A stretch of DNA of 64,000 bases from Clostridiales bacterium. Its GTDB lineage: Bacteria > Bacillota > Clostridia > Christensenellales > Pumilibacteraceae. Shown one piece after another: positions 6,222-53,600 of the stretch (position 1 is its first letter; the number at the start of each line of letters is the position of its first letter). A program made the translations under genes and the position numbers. The stretch spans positions 248,001 to 312,000 of the forward strand of contig JAFLVG010000001.1 of assembly GCA_022508445.1 (NCBI GenBank). Direction: 5' to 3'. The notes beneath the pieces were generated by a model. The model worked only from the letters and a program-made list of their open reading frames with translations. It did no database searches and had not been told where the DNA came from.

Positions 6222-9200
6222 TCATTTTATTTCGGTGACTTCGAAAAGCTCGCCCGACGCAAAGGAATACAAATACGCATGCTTAACCTTAAAAGCAGGC
6301 ACGCTCTTTTCCACGGCGGCGGCATACAGGCGGAGCTGCATTCGGTATCCGGCGTTATCCTTGATTGCGCTCGGATTGCCCGTTTTGTAATCGACGATCG
6401 TCACATTGCCGCAATCGTCCGCTATCAGCAAATCTATTACGCCTTGAACCAATATATTTTCGTCCGCGCCGTCGCGGTAAAGTCCGTCGGCAGGCAGGTC
6501 CGCTATAAAATACCGTTCTTTCCAGACAAACGCCGCCGACTCCGCAAGCCCGTTCATGACCTTTGCCGCGCGCAATATTTGTCCTTCGTCCACAAGATCG
6601 AAGTTTTCGCACTGCTCTTTCAGCCTTTGCATGTCGGGCGATGAAAAATCCACAAGCTCCATGGCGCGGTGATACGCCGTGCCGCGAGCGCGTGCGTCGG
6701 CTCCGTCGCACTTTGGCATATCTCCGCCCTCGCCTTGAATATCGTCGTACTCGTCGGCGGTAAGTACGGGCGCCGCCGCGGTATAGTCGTCGCCTGTACT
6801 TATTTCCTCGTCGCCGTGCGAGATTGCGGTCACGCAAGTCTTGATGGGAAGCTCGTTCTTTTTGTACCCGTCGGTACGCAGAATGCGCTCTTTGACGGCG
6901 CGCACAATCCCGTCGTCTATGGGAAGAGCCTGTATTTCTTCTTCCGCTTCGACGGGAAGAAGAAGCGGCTCGGGCGTTACCGGCAAGAAATTAACAAAGT
7001 CGAGAAAGCACTTTGCCTCGCGAGGCTCAACCGCTTTTCTGTTTTTGTTCTTGCCGCACACAATGAGCTTTCTCTTTGCGCGAGTGAGAGCGACGTACAG
7101 GAGGCGCAGTTCTTCCGATTTTGTTCGCTCGGGTGCGAGCGCATTGCATACCATCCACGGAACGGACTTTTTGAGCGTGCGCGAGGACGCGTCGGGAATC
7201 TTAATCGCCACGCCGCTTTCCGTTGCCATTATGCGCGAGCTGTTGTCGCGCTCGTTGAACCTTCTCGCCGTGTCCGCCACAATGACGAAATCGTATTCGA
7301 GACCTTTGGACGAGTGTATCGTGGAAATCACAACCGCGTCGTCTCCGTCCGTAACGTCAAGCTCGAAGTCCGAGCTGTCGTAGTAATCGATGAACGCGTG
7401 CAAATCGCAATGCCGCTCGGCGGCGTAGTCGATAACCGCCTCCAAAACGCGAGCGTTACCGCCCTTTTCGTAGACGCTGCCGAAATAATCGATAGTGGAA
7501 GTGATATAACCGAGAGCGTCGGCGGCGTCGTGATTGGCGCGAGAGTAGCGCATGAACCTTTCGCGCAGTGCGAAAAACGCTTGAAGCCGCGCGCGATACT
7601 TGTCGCCGTTATACGCTTCGAGCTTTTGCCAAAACATTATGGGCGTTCTTGCTCCGAACGAATCGTTTTTATTGCCTTTGCGAAGCACATCGTCGCCGAC
7701 CGCCGCAATTTCGGCAAGCTCTTTGTCCGAAAATCCGCCCATGGACGAAGTCAGCGCGGTGTACAGCGCAACGTCGTCGTAACGGTTATCTACAAACCTC
7801 GCGATATCCATTAGCGCAACGGCTTCCGGGAAGTCCTTTACTTTGGTCTTGCGCCCGAAGCTGTGCTTGATATTGCGCATCTTGAATTCCGACGAAAGCG
7901 CCGCGCAAAACTCGGGATCGGCGGAGCGCAAAAGCACTGCCACCGAGCTTAAACTCGGTTTGTCCGTCGTCGCGAGCCACTTGGTTATTTCGCTTGCGAT
8001 AAACTGCGCCTCGCGATCCGGCTCGACAGCCACTGCCGCCGCGCCGTTCATCACCGAATACACGTCGCCGTAATCATTTTCGTCCGTTTCCGTGCTTACT
8101 TCGTTTTCGGACTCGGGACTGATTAAGACAAGCTCGGCTTTGCCGTCCGCCATAGCCTTATTGCCGAAAACAAGCCGTTGTCCACGTTGCCCTGTTTTGC
8201 CTGAGTAGTCCACTCCGCCGAACTCGGTTGTCATCGTCCTGTCGAACACTACGTTGATAAAATCGATAACCGGCTTTGCCGAACGGAAGTTTTCGGCAAG
8301 GGAAATGTGGGTGTATTCGCCGCTTAATATAGCGTCTTGGAAATGCTTGGGACTGCAACGCCTAAACCCGTATATGGATTGCTTGATGTCTCCCACCAAA
8401 AACATTTCCGCGCCTGCGTCCTTGAACTTTCGGGCTATTTCGGACTGTAACGGATTGACGTCTTGGAACTCGTCAATGAACACATATTTGACGGTTGCCG
8501 CAATTTCGGACATACAGTCGGGACTTTCGAGCACGGAAAACGCGCCGTGTTCGAGGTCGGAGTAATCTATCTTGCCGAGCGCTTCTTTGCGCTTTGAATA
8601 TCTTTTAAGCGCGTCGAACGCGACTGCGCAAACGGCGCGCACATACGGCGTGCCGTTGCACTCTTTTGCGGCTTTCGCTTCGCTGTTGAAAGTGCGGAAA
8701 GCCTTGCAATCGGCTTTGAGCGCTTTGAACATCTCGTTGAGTTCGTCGGTCGCGTCGCCTTTTATCCTGTGCGATGTTCCGGTGATATCGTCTATCGTGC
8801 CGTCCATATAATCGCCGAACTCGCCGATTACAACAGCATGCCTACTCATGCCTGCCGCGGCAAGGTCGGCTTTCAGCGCGTCTATCCTTTGGAACAGCGC
8901 TTCTCGCTTGTCGGTTACAATCTTATCGAGAGTATCGAAATACTCGCAGTCCTCTTTTACGGTTGTCAAATACTCTTCGGGCTTGGGAACGGAAAGCGCA
9001 AAGTCCAACACGTCGGTGACCGCGGAAATCACTCCGTCGTCGTTTTTGCGACTGCGCATCATGTCGTACAACGCCGAGAAAAAGGTATCGCCGCTCTCCC
9101 AAGCGCTTTTTACCGCGGCGGCTACTGCGGCACGCTTCAACGATGCCGCCTCGCTCTCCTCGCACACAACAGCCGACGGATCGATGCCGGTAGCGTAAAA

Positions 9201-31719: not shown

Positions 31720-32439
31720 TTATTTCACAAGCAACGATCCGCCGCTCTTTATTTTGTATTCTTTCACCTTGCGCGCAAGATAAATGACGGGCGTATCGAG
31801 CAATGATGTGAATACGAATATCACGTAACCCGAGCCGAAAATGGAAAGCAAAGTCATGAAGTCATACGTGCCTGCGAATGCGAGAGTGGTGAACAAAAGC
31901 GTGTTGATAAGCTGACTGACAAGCGTCGATCCGTTGTTGCGCAGCCATAAATACTTTTTCTTGTCGCCGAACTTTCTCTCGGTAAAGCTCCACCATTTGT
32001 GATACAGCCACACGTCGAAAAACTGGCTTACGGCGTATACCGCGAGCGACGCGACCACAAGCCGCGGCGTTTGCGAAAACAGCTGATTTACCGCCGGCAT
32101 CGAAGCGTCCGCCTCGCTCGGATCGAACAGCATCCACAATTGCGACAGCGCGAGAAAGAACAACGTCGAAAATATGCCTATGTACACCGCTTTGTTCGCC
32201 GAGGCCTTGCTTTCGCATTCCGAAAGTATATCGGTGGCGAGGAAAGTGGCGGCAAACAACACGTTGCCGAGCGTTTGCTCCATGCCGAACGCTTTTATGA
32301 GAATGACGACCTCGACGTTGGCAAAAACGGTCGCAAGCGCGGATACGCAATAAATCCCGGCGCGGCCGAAGAACATGTAGGCCACAAGCACCGAGCCGAA
32401 TATGAGCAACACCGAAACTATAAGCAAAAGCTCGTTCAT
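31720..32439 (-). CDS. VUT-family queuosine precursor transporter (YhhQ-like)
   Basis: 239 aa, about six membrane helices. Matches the VUT_1/YhhQ family in ATFLATDILSECESKASANKAVYIG and YAVSQFFDVWLYHKWW. The E. coli member imports preQ0 and preQ1, and other members carry queuine. The ATG overlaps the stop of the upstream radical SAM gene (ATGA), so the two are translated together. The substrate here is probably queuine or another 7-deazaguanine, inferred from the partner gene. Confidence 0.85.
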   Translation of the reverse strand: MNELLLIVSVLLIFGSVLVAYMFFGRAGIYCVSALATVFANVEVVILIKAFGMEQTLGNVLFAATFLATDILSECESKASANKAVYIGIFSTLFFLALSQLWMLFDPSEADASMPAVNQLFSQTPRLVVASLAVYAVSQFFDVWLYHKWWSFTERKFGDKKKYLWLRNNGSTLVSQLINTLLFTTLAFAGTYDFMTLLSIFGSGYVIFVFTSLLDTPVIYLARKVKEYKIKSGGSLLVK

Positions 32440-48587: not shown

Positions 48588-48676
48588 GGAGCGGTATCGA
48601 AGTGGTCATAACGGGCCTGACTCGAAATCAGGTAGCCCGCAAGGGCTCGTGGGTTCGAATCCCACCCGCTCCGCCA
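48588..48676 (+). tRNA. tRNA-Ser (anticodon CGA)
   Basis: 89 nt with encoded CCA and a long variable arm (GCCCGCAAGGGC), as expected for serine. Acceptor GGAGCGG/CCGCTCC, anticodon stem CCTGA/TCAGG around CTCGAAA (anticodon 48623-48625), T arm GTGGG-TTCGAAT-CCCAC. Its 3' end is the insertion point of the island. Confidence 0.96.
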
Positions 48677-49407
48677 AGAGCACCCAATTTGAACCCAAGC
48701 GGCTCAAAAAGGGTGTTTTCTTTTGCGGTAAAACTTTTCAGCTCGTCTAACTCGTCGTTGGTTAGCTTTACCTTTGTAGGCGTTTCTGGCGAGATGTTGT
48801 AAAAGATATAAAGATAATCGTCGAATAACACCGCGCGGTATATGAACAAATTAAAGAACTCGTTCTTTTCTTCGTCGTTTTTGTATTGCTTTTTTGCAAA
48901 GTAGGTTAGGAACGTTTTAATCGTCTCATAATCTAGCGGCTGAATCTGCCTTGCTTTTTCTACTGCAATCTTATTTTCTAATTTGTCATTTTGCTGTTCC
49001 AAAGCGAGTAATCTCTCTTTGGTGGACTTTGTCACAATTCCTTCTGCAATAGCATTAAGAAAACCGTTAATCGCTTTCTGTACTTGCTGTTGTTCTTTTT
49101 CGAGTAGTACAAGATGATCCGACTTTTGCAATCCTTCGTTAAACCTATCGACCACAGAAACGGCAATCTTGTCTATTACCTGTAGTTGCAAAACATAATC
49201 TATTGTCTTTTCAAACACAAGATTTTCCAACATCTCTTTTGTAATATTGCTCTTATTGCATTCGGTTTTGTTCTTCTTTCTATTAAAGCATTTGTAGTAA
49301 TGATACACCTTTCCCGTATGAATTGTGCCGTCCTCTGCGGTCATAAGTGTTCCGCAGTTTCCACAGAAAAGTTTTCCGCTCAATATGTATTCGCTGTGTT
49401 GTTGCAC
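48628..49407 (-). pseudogene. Serine recombinase C-terminal remnant
   Basis: 260 codons from a GTG at 49407. It contains the recombinase zinc-ribbon (YILSGKLFCGNCGTLM...YYKCFNRKKNKTECNK) and the long coiled coil of large serine recombinases. The whole N-terminal catalytic domain with its serine is gone, and an in-frame TAA lies just upstream of AYRRKAVQQHSEY. The last 16 codons (IRTHEPLRAT) are antisense to tRNA-Ser. It cannot catalyse integration and marks a decayed mobile element. Confidence 0.85.
48667..48676. repeat. Left attachment-site repeat at tRNA-Ser 3' end
   Basis: CGCTCCGCCA, the last ten bases of tRNA-Ser, recurs exactly at 53601-53610. Confidence 0.6.
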
Positions 49408-49756
49408 GGCTTTTCTCCGATATGCACATTAGGTAAATCGTCCTCACTACAAGGATAGTAATACAGATATTTTCCTTCAGTTTTCGCCGGCTGTTGCTTC
49501 TTATTCAAATGATATGCTAACTTATCCTCAGGATAAGTTTACAATACTAATAGTGACAACATATTATCTATAAAAACAGAAAACTCAAAAAATCCAGAAT
49601 ATTTCTTCCCAAAATTATGATGCATTTTACCGCTGCCAAAGCAGGATAAGAAAGTGGGCAAACCCGCTTTCGAGGACGTTCGCTCCGCGAAGTCCGAACA
49701 AGCGGGAAACCCGCTTTTAGTTGATCGGAACTTTTAAAAATTTATATTTTTAACCG
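49408..49756. other. Gene-free stretch inside the island
   Basis: Contains debris upstream of the recombinase remnant (a short frame on the minus strand reading KYLYYYPCSEDDLPNVHIGE) and, at 49700-49718, a hairpin AAGCGGG-AAA-CCCGCTT followed by T residues. No intact gene is seen. Confidence 0.6.
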
Positions 49757-49785
49757 TTGAAAGTTTTTTCGAGATGTGATATAAT
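49757..49785 (+). promoter_or_regulatory. Promoter of the nuclease/TGT-like pair
   Basis: TTGAAA (49757-49762), 17 nt, TATAAT (49780-49785) with a TGTGA extension. AGGAG precedes the ATG at 49819. Confidence 0.8.
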
Positions 49786-49818
49786 ATAACTGGTTTTTTA
49801 TATTCAGGAGACAAAATT

Positions 49819-50610
49819 ATGTTATACGATGAACTCTTAATTTTCTCCAAAGATAAAATTGCTGAGTTTTTTAAGAATGTAACTCTTTTTGACAATCAAT
49901 TTAATTTTACGGAATTTCATAAGATTTGCTATGAAAATATGTATGCTGTTAACAACTCTGATTGTCCAAGCACGGTTAAGGAACTAAAATCACAAATCCA
50001 AGAGTTGGCTATGGTATGTAAAAAATGTGGGCCGTATTATATGAACCCACGAAATTCTAGCCATATTAAGTATGACTTAATGATGGGAAAATTGTTTGAA
50101 GATATTTTAATTGACTTCTTCACGCAGAAATTACATATAAAGGCAATGCATGCGGATAATAGCAACAAGCAGTATCCAGATTGTATGATTTTATGTGGAG
50201 ATAAGCAAATAGCTGCTTATTTTGAAGTAAAATATCATTCGGCTCCTTTTATATCAGCTATTAATAAAATCAATAGATATTGTTATGAAGGAAGCATTAC
50301 TCTTGATTATAAAAAGATAATAAAACAATTAGAGTTGATTGACTCTGATATAGAACGACCTGTGTTCTATTTGCATTGGGTAGATTTTCCTTGCTTAAAA
50401 GGCGTATTTTTTGAGACATCAGAACAAATTAAACAATACATTTATGATAATGGTGAAGAATTTTCCAGAGAGAAACGCGTGGGAGATGACGAGAAGAACC
50501 CGAAAAGTATCTATCTTTCTAAATTTTACTCACCGCTTTTGCAAATGGGAACATTCGAGGAATTTGTTGAATTAATCAGAAAAATTATTAAGGAGAAGAA
50601 ACACAAATGA
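49819..50610 (+). CDS. PD-(D/E)XK endonuclease, probable restriction enzyme
   Basis: 263 aa. A helix glutamate (Glu94 in GKLFEDILIDFF) is followed by Asp121 in QYPDCMILCG and by Glu136-x-Lys138 in AAYFEVKYHS, the order and spacing of a PD-(D/E)XK active site. A cysteine pair (CKKCG near 67-71) precedes it. No helicase or translocase domain, so type II-like. It overlaps the next gene by four bases (ATGA), and two methyltransferases lie in the same island. Specific recognition sequence is unknown. It does not resemble a named restriction enzyme family I recall. Confidence 0.78.
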   Translation: MLYDELLIFSKDKIAEFFKNVTLFDNQFNFTEFHKICYENMYAVNNSDCPSTVKELKSQIQELAMVCKKCGPYYMNPRNSSHIKYDLMMGKLFEDILIDFFTQKLHIKAMHADNSNKQYPDCMILCGDKQIAAYFEVKYHSAPFISAINKINRYCYEGSITLDYKKIIKQLELIDSDIERPVFYLHWVDFPCLKGVFFETSEQIKQYIYDNGEEFSREKRVGDDEKNPKSIYLSKFYSPLLQMGTFEEFVELIRKIIKEKKHK

Positions 50611-51722
50611 AATATTATTTTATATACAGTGCAGGTGGTGGCGCTGGGGATTGGAATGGTGTAAAAAGAATTTGGAACGACTGTATGCCTATTGCTATCA
50701 AGTCAAATATACTTCTAAAATTCGGAGATGTGTTTCTTAATCATGCGGCTCCAACAACTCCTTGTAGACCTCGCAGATGGAATGACATTACAAATTTAAG
50801 AGAATGGCTATATGAGGCAACTGCTGACGAATACACTCTAAACGAAGCGAATATTTTATTAGATTCCGGAAGTGCAAAACTTGTAAATTTTATAGCACAT
50901 AATAACCCACAAATTTCGAACGATGACCTTATTGTTGAATTTGATAATATACTTAATAGATACCAAATAATCGAAAAGTACATTGATATTATAGCAACTT
51001 CAAATATTAATGGCGCAGTTACTTTCGATATTCCCAACCCATTTAAAATACGTAGTCAAAATGGTAATGCGAGATTGAATATTTTGACTCAAACCGACAG
51101 GCAGCGCCTTATTGAACTTTCTGCTAATTATTCTAATAGGATATACCATGTCTTAAACAACAGCAGTGAGCGATTATATACTATTATCAATGGGGAATGG
51201 AGTCTTGACGAAGTCAATATCTTTTTGAGTTTGCTTGATTATAGGCCTAGAAATTTTGCCATTGGCGGCGTATCTTCTGCGGACGAATCAACTTTTATAG
51301 AATGTATAAACACACTCGCACAAGCACAATTGAATTATGAACACATTCACTTTTTAGGGTGTGGCGGGCTAAAAAAAGTCGCAATTTTGCGAAATACAGT
51401 TTTTGACAATGAACGAACATCGGTTGATTGTTCTACACCGATCAATCGTTCAATAGATGGAAATGTTAGCGGCACAGCCCAATCTTGTTACTATTCTTAT
51501 CAAAATCAAGAACTTATCAGAATAAAACCCGAAACAAGGAATAGAATATTACAATTACATGCTGCCGTGGAAAATCCTTTGTTTGATTTGAATGAAATGA
51601 CAAATATTATTGACACCGTTTTGAGACATCAGAATCATCAATCTAACGAGGAAACTTACAACGGAAGAGCTAAATTGCTAATTCATAATACGGATGTTTA
51701 TAAACGATTCGCAAATAATTAG
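50607..51722 (+). CDS. TGT/DpdA-like transglycosylase in a restriction island
   Basis: 371 aa. Four landmarks of tRNA-guanine transglycosylases appear in order: Asp86 in NILLDSGSAKLV (compare TDSGGFQ), Asp141 in GAVTFDIPNPF, GG at 220-221 in FAIGGVSSADE (compare GGLAVGE) and Asp274 in TSVDCSTPINRS (compare the nucleophile in FDCVxPTRxARNG). Intervals 86-141-274 parallel 102-156-280 in Zymomonas TGT. The C-terminal zinc cluster of TGT is missing, as in DpdA, which exchanges guanine for preQ0 in DNA. It is translationally coupled to the nuclease. DNA base exchange is the inference; another substrate, or loss of activity, is possible. Confidence 0.72.
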   Translation: MKYYFIYSAGGGAGDWNGVKRIWNDCMPIAIKSNILLKFGDVFLNHAAPTTPCRPRRWNDITNLREWLYEATADEYTLNEANILLDSGSAKLVNFIAHNNPQISNDDLIVEFDNILNRYQIIEKYIDIIATSNINGAVTFDIPNPFKIRSQNGNARLNILTQTDRQRLIELSANYSNRIYHVLNNSSERLYTIINGEWSLDEVNIFLSLLDYRPRNFAIGGVSSADESTFIECINTLAQAQLNYEHIHFLGCGGLKKVAILRNTVFDNERTSVDCSTPINRSIDGNVSGTAQSCYYSYQNQELIRIKPETRNRILQLHAAVENPLFDLNEMTNIIDTVLRHQNHQSNEETYNGRAKLLIHNTDVYKRFANN

Positions 51723-51724
51723 TT

Positions 51725-51754
51725 AAAAAAGATGGATTAATTTCCATCTTTTTT
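51725..51754. terminator. Bidirectional terminator shared by TGT-like gene and methyltransferase
   Basis: AAAAAAGATGGA/TCCATCTTTTTT, a 12-pair stem, overlaps the last codons and stop of the minus-strand methyltransferase. Confidence 0.85.
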
Positions 51755-52561
51755 AATTTGATTCATCCAATCAAATATGGATTGTTGGAGATTCTTTACT
51801 TCGGTTTCTATTCTTTTTGATATTTCGCTTTCATAGGATTGATCTAGCTCAAAGCCAACAGCTTTTCTATCGAGATTGAGTGCCGCTACAGCTGTCGTTC
51901 CGCTACCGAGAAAAGGATCTAGTACGGTATCGCCTATATTTGAGGACATCTTTATTATTCTTTCAATCATTTCTATCGGATAAACGGTGGGATGTGATAA
52001 ACCCAACTTTTCCTTTGTCATGTTGTTGACACGATTGAAGTACCAAACATCTGTAGGGTTTCTTCCTGTTCCACCTTCTAATCTTTTGTCATTTTGAGTT
52101 ATATATGGGATTCTTACATCGTCAAGATTAAACACATAATTCTTTAGATCCTTTACGCCCCAGACAATGTTTTCATATCTACCAGACAACCTCTGAGTGC
52201 AGTTTTGCATATTGTTAAAAGTCCAAGTAATGATATTTCTAATGTAAAACCCGGCTTCTTTCATAATATCGTACCCGATATAAGGTAAAGGCAAAATTTC
52301 CTTATTTTCGCCGAAGGGAACCGGGGAAAGATTCAAAAAGAAACTACCATCTGGAGTTAAAGTCCTAAATACTTCTTTTGTTACTTCGGAAATTAAATTC
52401 TTCCATTCATCCAAAGGTATTTTATCTTTATATTTTCCATATGGTTTACCAATGTTATAGGGTGGAGATGTTACTACTAATTTTATGCTTCCATCAGGGA
52501 TCGATTTTAATAGATTCCTTGAGTCTCCAAAATCAATATATAAATTCTCGGTTTTAATCAC
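51737..52561 (-). CDS. Beta-class DNA methyltransferase (N4-cytosine or N6-adenine), first
   Basis: 274 aa from a GTG at 52561, nine bases after GGAGG; an ATG at 52609 lies within the upstream gene and lacks a site. Catalytic motif TSPPYN (residues 31-36) comes first and the AdoMet-binding DPFLGSGTTAVAA near 220 comes last, the order of beta-class enzymes. TSPPY is frequent among N4-cytosine enzymes but not decisive. The start overlaps the stop of the other methyltransferase by eight bases (GTGATTAA), so the two are coupled. Confidence 0.9.
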   Translation of the reverse strand: MIKTENLYIDFGDSRNLLKSIPDGSIKLVVTSPPYNIGKPYGKYKDKIPLDEWKNLISEVTKEVFRTLTPDGSFFLNLSPVPFGENKEILPLPYIGYDIMKEAGFYIRNIITWTFNNMQNCTQRLSGRYENIVWGVKDLKNYVFNLDDVRIPYITQNDKRLEGGTGRNPTDVWYFNRVNNMTKEKLGLSHPTVYPIEMIERIIKMSSNIGDTVLDPFLGSGTTAVAALNLDRKAVGFELDQSYESEISKRIETEVKNLQQSIFDWMNQIKKDGN

Positions 52562-53345
52562 TGTTATCTTCCTCCTGAATATTGGCAAGACGAACGTTTG
52601 ACATTTCAATATATTCTGGGACTATTTCGTAACCAATATATCTGCGACATAATTTTTTTGCTACAACGGCAGTAGTTCCGCTACCCATAAATGGATCTAA
52701 AACGACATCGTTTTTATTTGTTCCCGCTAAAATTATACGTTCTATTAATTTTTCCGGGTATTGCGCAGGGTGCCCGGTGCGCTCTAGGAAATTGCCAGAA
52801 ACCATAGGGATTTTCCAAACGTCACTAGGATTTTTTAATTGGGATTTATATCTATCCGGTCTGTAATTAACCGCAGGAATTGATACATCTGAAAGATTAA
52901 ATGTATAGGCATTTTTATCTTTTGTGAACCAAAAGACGAACTCATATCTAGGCGCAAATCGCTTGTTTGTAGAACCACCCCAATCAAAATTCCAAACTAT
53001 TAGATTTTTTAGGGTAAACTCTTGGAAATATTCTTGAATCCAAAATGGTGGTATTATTTCGCCGTTACTATAACGATTTTTTATATTTATCCAAATTGAA
53101 CCATTCTTTTTTAGTACTCTTTTACATTCGCTAAAAACAGAACGAAGCATTCCCCTATATTCTGATTCTGCCATTTTATCGGAGTATTTTACGGCTTTAC
53201 TAGCTGTTACTTTGCCCTTTTCAGTCTTGTTTCCATATTGTATATCAATGTTATATGGAGGCGATGTAACTATCAAGTCAACGCTTTCGTTTGGGACTTC
53301 GCACATTGATTCACTTGATTTCAAATAAATAATGTTAGTTTGCAT
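52554..53345 (-). CDS. Beta-class DNA methyltransferase, second
   Basis: 263 aa. TSPPYNIDIQYG (motif IV, residues 27-32) and DPFMGSGTTAVVAKKL (motif I) in the same order as its neighbour, with a long central target-recognition part (RYSNGEIIPPFWIQEYF, PSDVWKIPMVSG). Two distinct methyltransferases beside one nuclease is the usual set for a non-palindromic recognition site, one for each strand. First gene of the pair. AGGA precedes the ATG. Confidence 0.9.
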   Translation of the reverse strand: MQTNIIYLKSSESMCEVPNESVDLIVTSPPYNIDIQYGNKTEKGKVTASKAVKYSDKMAESEYRGMLRSVFSECKRVLKKNGSIWINIKNRYSNGEIIPPFWIQEYFQEFTLKNLIVWNFDWGGSTNKRFAPRYEFVFWFTKDKNAYTFNLSDVSIPAVNYRPDRYKSQLKNPSDVWKIPMVSGNFLERTGHPAQYPEKLIERIILAGTNKNDVVLDPFMGSGTTAVVAKKLCRRYIGYEIVPEYIEMSNVRLANIQEEDNSD

Positions 53346-53375
53346 ATTTAAATCCTATAGTGCTATTCTATGATT

Positions 53376-53404
53376 ATTATACCACGCTGAATTGGCGGGG
53401 TCAA
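53376..53404 (-). promoter_or_regulatory. Promoter of the methyltransferase pair
   Basis: TTGACC (53399-53404), 17 nt, TATAAT (53376-53381). The remaining island sequence to 53600 is AT-rich without a gene. Confidence 0.82.
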
Positions 53405-53600
53405 GCATTTTATGCTAGTTTTGCTTCTTTTATAAAAAATTTTTTTCTTTTACTTGAGGGAAACATCTATAATGTTAATTTATATTGTACCACAAATATT
53501 AATAAAACGAGCAGATATATCGGCGTTTATTTGATTTTTATAAAATTAACCTTACTGCAAATGTTTTTCCACACATAAACAGTTCAACTTTGGATAATGA

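Follow-up and report, generated by a model that had tools for sequence, protein, structure and literature searches.

A four-gene cassette, probably of the restriction-modification type, that pairs a nuclease-like protein with a putative DpdA-like base-exchange enzyme in a Clostridiales bacterium

In a 64,000-nucleotide stretch of DNA from a Clostridiales bacterium (contig JAFLVG010000001.1, positions 248,001 to 312,000; hereafter designated the window), we found a four-gene cassette, in which the genes for a PD-(D/E)XK nuclease-like protein and a DpdA-like protein of 371 residues form a pair on the plus strand, and those for two beta-class DNA methyltransferases lie on the minus strand, facing the pair. 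The cassette is quite probably of the restriction-modification (RM) type, and the same four genes were detected together in two other genomes. As to its function, we tentatively favor a reading, held at somewhat less than an even chance, in which the DpdA-like enzyme stands on the restriction side and would attack guanine in unmethylated sites, prior to cleavage or along with it. The coordinates and reading frames of the cassette's open reading frames (ORFs), which came from a first-pass annotation of the window, were upheld by an ORF check (Table 1).

The 371-residue protein very probably belongs to the tRNA-guanine transglycosylase (TGT) superfamily, as judged from its sequence motifs. In an alignment with its homologues in the two other genomes (loci L002 and L003, 60% and 43% identical to the window protein, respectively), residues D86, D141, G220, H248, and D274 are invariant in all three proteins, whereas the position of G221 is variable (G/A/A). 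Of the TGT landmarks named in the first-pass annotation, Asp86, Asp141, Gly220, and Asp274 are thus retained, and were picked again by a model built without the cassette, but Gly221 is not; the aspartates, whose loss in homologues had been named there as evidence against the assignment, are kept in both homologues found. The model consists of five motif blocks and was trained on 57 DpdAs, 20 TGTs, one archaeosine TGT, and the proteins of two side loci (L111 and L027), with the cassette excluded. It placed the blocks of the window protein at D86, D141, G220, H248, and D274 with a score of 53.6, as compared with 26.4 for the best unrelated ORF (neither TGT-family nor cassette) and a maximum of 26.3 for shuffles of the same protein, none of 400 reaching its score. 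The L002 homologue scored 38.1, also above the best unrelated ORF and reached by none of 400 shuffles. The L003 homologue is not significant alone, because its score of 23.5 was reached by 5 of 400 shuffles; block 1 was misplaced by the model in this protein, for which the MAFFT alignment is in register. Among 177 ORFs, the top seven by score were five DpdAs and two cassette proteins, and a DpdA outside the training set (locus L014; a tblastn match of the 9g DpdA, frame checked) scored 49.7. The model leans on DpdA, since extraction of blocks 2–5 succeeded in only 3 of the 20 TGTs, and block 5 is conserved by selection, most of the training DpdAs having been retrieved with the block-5 pattern. 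An ordered-motif regular expression, written after the cassette had been seen, missed L003, 30 of the 57 DpdAs, and 7 of the 20 TGTs, and was superseded by the motif-block model.

Curated family models gave a faint signal. The window protein matched the NCBIfam DpdA model NF041059 with E = 0.001 (18 bits against a cut-off of 200, which the L111 protein and the other matches of our survey likewise miss) and the PADLOC DpdA model with E = 0.0012. Neither model matched the L002 and L003 homologues, and the window protein had no Pfam TGT match at E ≤ 1. When the NCBIfam model was run over 684 genomes, 20 contained a match at E ≤ 0.001 (3 of 299 and 17 of 385). In the genome of the window this match was the 371-residue protein only (E = 4.3e-4), and none of the 19 others was an obvious false match: 16 were Bacteroidota proteins recognised by a TGT hidden Markov model (HMM) at E < 1e-148, and the remainder comprised L111 (DpdA-like), L027 (TGT-like), and L028, a member of the TGT HMM's own training set that carries DSGG and CDC-x-x-C motifs. 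HMMs of phage DpdAs and host TGTs, when searched against the local ORFs, placed some cassette members among the first four, with E values of 0.2–1.5. A match to PDC-M46A (E = 2e-4) was taken as chance; its best stretch (residues 67–125) covers motif 1 alone, and both homologues are without a match. PDC-M46 is reported in one paper to overlap a Lamassu assignment.

Within the superfamily, the protein is DpdA/archaeosine-TGT-like rather than tRNA-TGT-like in sequence, because it has the motif-4 His and no CxCxxC zinc cluster. The cluster occurs in 17 of the 20 TGTs, in none of the 57 DpdAs, and in none of the three cassette proteins; its absence, already noticed in the first pass, is therefore normal for a DpdA. 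Similarly, motif 4 reads H-x-[FL]-G in all 57 DpdAs and keeps its His (H248) in all three cassette proteins, whereas 19 of the 20 TGTs have Y-x-MGVG (the His form is found somewhere in 1 of 20). The motif-4 His is found in archaeosine TGT too and is hence not exclusive to DpdA, and the cassette sequence TFDIPNPF resembles FLDIPTPP of archaeosine TGT, as read from alignments. The cassette His appears to correspond to His 196 of DpdA, the residue by which DpdA (9g numbering) is separated from DpdA2 in the account of PMC6884629; no DpdA2 gene was seen in the gene table of the L110 stretch. For comparison, the structure of the S. Montevideo DpdA is available as PDB 7UI4, as given in PMC12137116. 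An ordinary tRNA-TGT was ruled out by the missing zinc cluster together with the motif-4 His, and each of the three hosts has a separate TGT elsewhere.

The partner protein is likely a PD-(D/E)XK nuclease, an assignment based on motifs: P120-D121, E136-x-K138, and the upstream E94 are invariant in the three homologues (L002 and L003, 63% and 37% identical to the window protein), in agreement with the residues first proposed (Glu94, Asp121, Glu136-x-Lys138). No family model matched above threshold, a weak Pfam match to HSDR_N (E = 0.12, residues 108–157) spans the motif region, and neither the protein nor its profile found a relevant PDB sequence. The ATGA overlap of the two plus-strand ORFs was confirmed in the window sequence. 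A fixed ratio of the two proteins, which had been deduced from coupled translation, is however not implied by coupling, and the pair in L002 does not overlap. At L003, a 143-residue ORF (6788–7219, plus strand) lies directly upstream of the nuclease gene and shares one base with it; it was not seen beside the other two nuclease genes, had no Pfam match at E ≤ 0.001 and no PADLOC match, and could encode a regulator or inhibitor.

The two methyltransferases, described in the first pass as beta-class enzymes convergent on the pair, are so by their strands and by their Pfam matches to PF01555 (E = 1e-60 for methyltransferase 1 and 1.4e-52 for methyltransferase 2), and both carry TSPPY. The SPPY motif is taken here as a mark of N4-cytosine specificity, and both enzymes are probably of the N4-cytosine type, for methyltransferase 2 on the strength of TSPPY alone. 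The closest PDB match of methyltransferase 1 is a DNA cytosine-N4 methyltransferase (E = 2e-29) with SPPY in common, and the adenine enzymes RsrI and CcrM show DPPY in the PDB alignments with it; methyltransferase 2 matched chains named just 'Methyltransferase', followed by RsrI. The homologues in L002 and L003 are 74% and 67% identical to the window protein for methyltransferase 1, and 75% and 57% for methyltransferase 2. For the start of the latter, the ORF finder gave TTG 52609, but GTG 52561, preceded by GGAGGA, is more likely, also from the length of the homologues, and gives the gene an 8-base overlap with the end of methyltransferase 1. Both methyltransferases belong to this cassette family, since the best matches in plasmids at E ≤ 1e-40 are just 35–39% identical. 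Among plasmids and viral contigs together, the methyltransferase queries found distant methylases only (24–41% identity), with no match in phages at E ≤ 1e-40; seven viral methylase loci contained no relative of the nuclease or the DpdA-like protein at E ≤ 0.1.

The four-gene neighbourhood, for which a genome search had been proposed in the first pass, was searched for in GTDB species genomes with six peptides of the 371-residue protein, so that more diverged members could be missed. Two further loci were found, L002 (59% identity in the best segment) on a contig of an Oscillospiraceae metagenome-assembled genome and L003 (42%) in the named isolate Flavobacterium solisilvae SE-s27, bringing the unit to three genomes of at least two phyla. 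Both contain all four genes with none intervening. The nuclease gene is followed directly by the DpdA-like gene in all three loci (the two overlap by ATGA in the window, share one base in L003, and are 3 nt apart in L002) and is linked in each to the methyltransferase genes, which are on the opposite strand, convergent to the pair, in the window and L003. Matches were confined to the source genomes in four genome sets, namely 101 relatives, 398 members of the phylum, 397 genomes from the Flavobacterium family, and 378 from that of L002, and no further members were found in phages, plasmids, and viral contigs (the last searched with three queries). As far as these searches reach, the cassette is rare. 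PADLOC gave no match at E ≤ 0.001 for 19 of 20 neighbouring proteins (10 from the window, 4 from L002, and 6 from L003). A 944-residue neighbour in L003 was considered as a defence partner (PADLOC mad3, E = 5e-86, and 35 weaker matches) and rejected, being UvrA by NCBIfam.

The capacity of the hosts to supply a 7-deazaguanine base bears on the role of the DpdA-like enzyme. Five weak matches to PF06508 (QueC) were obtained in the three hosts (≤28.6 bits, three of them above the 22-bit cut-off); Pfam assigned four to NAD synthase, MnmA (two), and ThiI, and the match of the fifth (L021) is interrupted by stops. Thus, no recognisable QueC was found in the three host genomes, which, all being draft assemblies, do not prove its absence. 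A YhhQ/Vut_1 family transporter of the 7-deazaguanine type is encoded in the window (31720–32439, minus strand; PF02592, E = 7e-46); LuxS and NifU-like genes lie close to it. The window host, which has TGT, QueA, and the transporter but no recognisable QueC, is probably a queuosine-precursor salvager. As all hosts have TGT and QueA but no recognisable QueC, preQ0 would need to be salvaged, and a dedicated 7-deazaguanine supply is little supported. The hosts look like 7-deazaguanine salvagers, so that a salvaged base could serve to mark DNA, though with no special provision for it.

In the reading that we tentatively favor, the cassette would work as follows. The two SPPY methyltransferases would mark the host sites, perhaps with one strand each of an asymmetric site, and the restriction side would be formed by the PD-(D/E)XK nuclease working with the DpdA-like transglycosylase. 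The latter may flip out guanine in unmethylated DNA, whereupon Asp274 would attack C1' of the guanine and the base would be released or exchanged; the nuclease would then cut at the site so produced (covalent, abasic, or exchanged) or close to it. For the DpdA-like enzyme, we infer that DNA is the substrate, that restriction and not marking is served, which base is targeted, and in what sequence the steps follow. The division into a restriction and a modification side is drawn from the layout, in which the DpdA-like gene goes with the nuclease gene in all three loci and lies opposite the methyltransferases in two, and retention of the chemistry is drawn from the catalytic Asp set, invariant in all three. 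Precedents are given by base-excision restriction enzymes blocked by methylation, as reported in PMC10273834 and PMC4357717, and by the exchange of guanine in DNA hairpins that PMC10103133 reports for the E. coli TGT. The specific proposition that the transglycosylase provides the damaging step, with guanine released or exchanged in unmethylated sites and the coupled nuclease completing the cut, is doubtful; of the two roles put forward in the first pass, the putative release of bases in partnership with the nuclease suits the gene layout better than the insertion of a protective base.

Several points weigh against placing the DpdA-like enzyme on the restriction side. The DpdAs described in PMC6884629 act by base insertion, not by DNA damage; canonical nucleases do without a glycosylase partner; and a 7-deazaguanine substrate for marking may exist in the hosts, since they handle 7-deazaguanines for tRNA (TGT and QueA in all three and a YhhQ-type transporter in two). 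The known members are three in all, and in L002 the four genes are on one strand, so that the two-operon split is not universal. For the superfamily assignment itself, the profile comparisons were weak. By hhalign, the cassette profile matched that of DpdA below significance (P = 0.0044, Prob 8%), its score of 22.7 against the 57 DpdAs comparing with 100 column shuffles of mean 15.8, standard deviation 2.7, and maximum 22.8, and its score against TGT (18.2) fell within the shuffles (mean 16.1, maximum 25.6). The cassette profile gave no usable signal with single superfamily members, and neither the DpdA-like protein nor its three-sequence profile had a significant match in the PDB, the solved TGT and DpdA chains included. 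These weak or null results, with the missing Pfam match and the failure of L002 and L003 to match the DpdA models, would be expected if the protein lay outside the superfamily and its motifs had arisen by chance. We regard that as most improbable, because the hhalign test lacks power (the known TGT–DpdA pair scored only 23.3 in it), the motif-block model free of the cassette picked the same residues at a score above that of the best unrelated ORF, and the NCBIfam DpdA model singled out this protein in its own genome, its 19 other matches in the survey being TGT-family-like.

Among readings that accept the superfamily assignment, it is unlikely, yet consistent with base insertion as the known activity of DpdA, that the cassette marks self in a Dpd-like manner, inserting salvaged preQ0 or preQ1 as an extra or conditional mark, with the nuclease cutting DNA that is unmarked. 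The transporter and the TGT and QueA genes of the hosts are in line with this, as are dpd islands without dpdC or preQ0 genes, some of which may rely on salvage according to PMC11888242. Several findings nevertheless weaken the protective base proposed in the first pass: the three hosts show no recognisable QueC, DpdB- or DpdC-like proteins were not matched among the 20 neighbours scanned, a third mark would be redundant beside two methyltransferases that already mark self, and the gene is the neighbour of the nuclease gene in all three loci. Quite unlikely, in our estimate, is a TGT fold that serves as a binding or specificity subunit and steers the nuclease to unmethylated sites without base exchange. 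The coupling of the DpdA-like gene to the nuclease gene would suit such a subunit, and the position of TGT Q203 appears to be N or lost in the cassette proteins, as read from alignments. A TGT-family protein put to binding has a parallel in Cap10 of type IV CBASS, which, as PMC11996544 describes it, is remodelled to bind a modified protein end; but the invariance of D86, D141, H248, and D274 at 43–60% identity would not be needed for binding alone. A toxin or abortive-infection pair directed at RNA, which would exchange a base in tRNA or cleave it while an unrelated mechanism kept the pair in check, with the methyltransferases as an ordinary partner, is very unlikely: the ancestry of the TGT family and the retention of TGT-dependent tRNA modification genes in the hosts speak for it, but the protein lacks the zinc cluster of tRNA-TGT and has His instead of Tyr in motif 4, and methyltransferases accompany the pair in all three genomes.

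A search of the open-licence PMC literature, covering DpdA or transglycosylase in combination with restriction, nuclease, methyltransferase, and defence, revealed no system of this make-up among the matches listed; none of these showed the pairing of DpdA with one nuclease and two methyltransferases, in line with what had been supposed at the outset. Type II RM systems with two methyltransferases are a known kind, and the cassette resembles them in its PD-(D/E)XK-type protein, its two adjacent beta-class methyltransferases, and its low GC content, but differs in having a base-exchange-type gene beside the nuclease gene in all three loci. The nearest systems in print, as far as the sources describe them, are Dpd, BRIGADE (PMC12458937), BRC with TGT and GNAT (PMC12839542), and Cap10 (PMC11996544), and base-excision restriction (PMC10273834) is nearest to the proposed mechanism. 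With Dpd (DpdA–DpdK) the cassette shares a restriction setting and a TGT-superfamily protein that has the DpdA-type His in motif 4 and lacks the zinc cluster. It differs in having one nuclease and two methyltransferases, in the distance of its DpdA-like protein from the NCBIfam cut-off, and in lacking a recognisable QueC and, in the neighbours scanned, DpdB, DpdC, or any other Dpd match; PADLOC gave no DpdB or DpdC match for the cassette nucleases either. If the proposed mechanism is right, the target of the cassette would be the N-glycosidic bond at unmethylated sites, as for R.PabI and HALFPIPE, but with TGT-type motifs and a separate nuclease rather than one glycosylase/apurinic-apyrimidinic lyase; no HALFPIPE or R.PabI-like domain was among the Pfam matches at E ≤ 10. 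Cap10 is likewise a TGT-family protein in an anti-phage operon, but acts on a protein end, and the cassette has no CD-NTase or QueC-like Cap9 partner (no PADLOC match to either among the 20 neighbouring proteins). BRC with TGT and GNAT is likewise a proposed defence operon that has a TGT homologue but neither DpdB nor DpdC; unlike it, the cassette has no HerA/FtsK, PglZ, or DUF6079 to be seen beside it, and PADLOC matched neither HerA/FtsK nor PglZ in the 20 neighbours. The DSGS, DIP-x-P, IGG, and V-H-x-x-G motifs of archaeosine TGT (PDB 1iq8) have their counterparts in the cassette protein, as read from alignments, but the profile match is not significant and the setting is DNA restriction, not tRNA.

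Collectively, these features of the cassette suggest an undescribed mechanism by which self and foreign DNA are distinguished. According to PMC10273834, all restriction enzyme families known outside the R.PabI superfamily are phosphodiesterases. If the DpdA-like enzyme indeed attacks a base, base-excision restriction would have a second, unrelated origin and restriction a second chemical route, with the protective role of DpdA reversed and its fold serving attack as well as camouflage. If it instead marks self, the cassette would be an unusually small Dpd-like system, joining methylation and base exchange in four genes. The presence of a member in F. solisilvae SE-s27 makes the question open to direct test.

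Table 1 Features of the cassette and its surroundings (positions in the window)
Feature	Position	Strand	Remarks
PD-(D/E)XK nuclease-like protein	49819..50610	+	263 aa; E94, D121, E136-x-K138
DpdA/archaeosine-TGT-like base-exchange enzyme (putative)	50607..51722	+	371 aa; D86, D141, G220, H248, D274, N280-R281
14-bp perfect inverted repeat, likely two-way terminator	51723..51756		between convergent operons
Beta-class DNA methyltransferase 2 (TSPPY)	51737..52561	-	274 aa from GTG 52561; PF01555
Beta-class DNA methyltransferase 1 (TSPPY)	52554..53345	-	263 aa; PF01555
GC-poor segment, probably acquired	49500..53499		GC profile
tRNA-Ser(CGA), possible integration site	48588..48676	+	1.1 kb upstream of cassette
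Recombinase C-terminal remnant	48628..49407	-	Zn_ribbon_recom E = 8.6e-14; C-terminus encoded within tRNA-Ser

The inverted repeat between the two operons lies in a segment (51718–51762) with a predicted RNA folding energy of -17.9 kcal/mol (z -6.3), none of 200 shuffles being equally stable. The cassette looks acquired, and apparently mobile, on account of a break in GC content, the upstream tRNA-Ser gene, and the recombinase remnant that ends in this gene. Its GC content is 31–37%, against 46–57% upstream, with a smaller contrast downstream (37–51% beyond 54000). The remnant also matches the C-terminal part of NCBIfam XisF (E = 2.5e-8) and has no Pfam match to a catalytic recombinase domain; its reach into the tRNA gene is suggestive of a former integration site, some 1.1 kb away from the cassette. 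No pair of repeats around the cassette could be read as att sites. For an empty-site comparison, no flank could be aligned, because the same-genus genomes that matched (8 of 19 others) hold distant phosphoesterase relatives only (25–35% identity).

Three further loci with TGT- or DpdA-like genes were encountered in the course of the survey. L111 (1120–3356, minus strand), from the phylum Bacteroidota, encodes a DpdA/archaeosine-TGT-like protein (E = 1e-14 to archaeosine TGT in the PDB), an unassigned 225-residue protein, and a third protein that matches PDC-M57A (E = 7e-10) and, weakly, DpdC (E = 0.0075); it is possibly another uncatalogued Dpd-like system. L027 (1–1971), from a genome of the window's phylum, holds a TGT/DpdA-like fragment at the contig end, next to a 264-residue protein that matches Csa3 weakly (E = 0.0037) and the beginning of an ATPase-like ORF, and may be a BRC-type locus. 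In L014 (7495–9391), a plasmid record of Monoglobus pectinilyticus with phage genes, the DpdA-like gene is flanked by a ParB-domain gene on one side and a queuosine precursor transporter gene on the other, an arrangement that resembles a phage-type Dpd set dependent on salvage.

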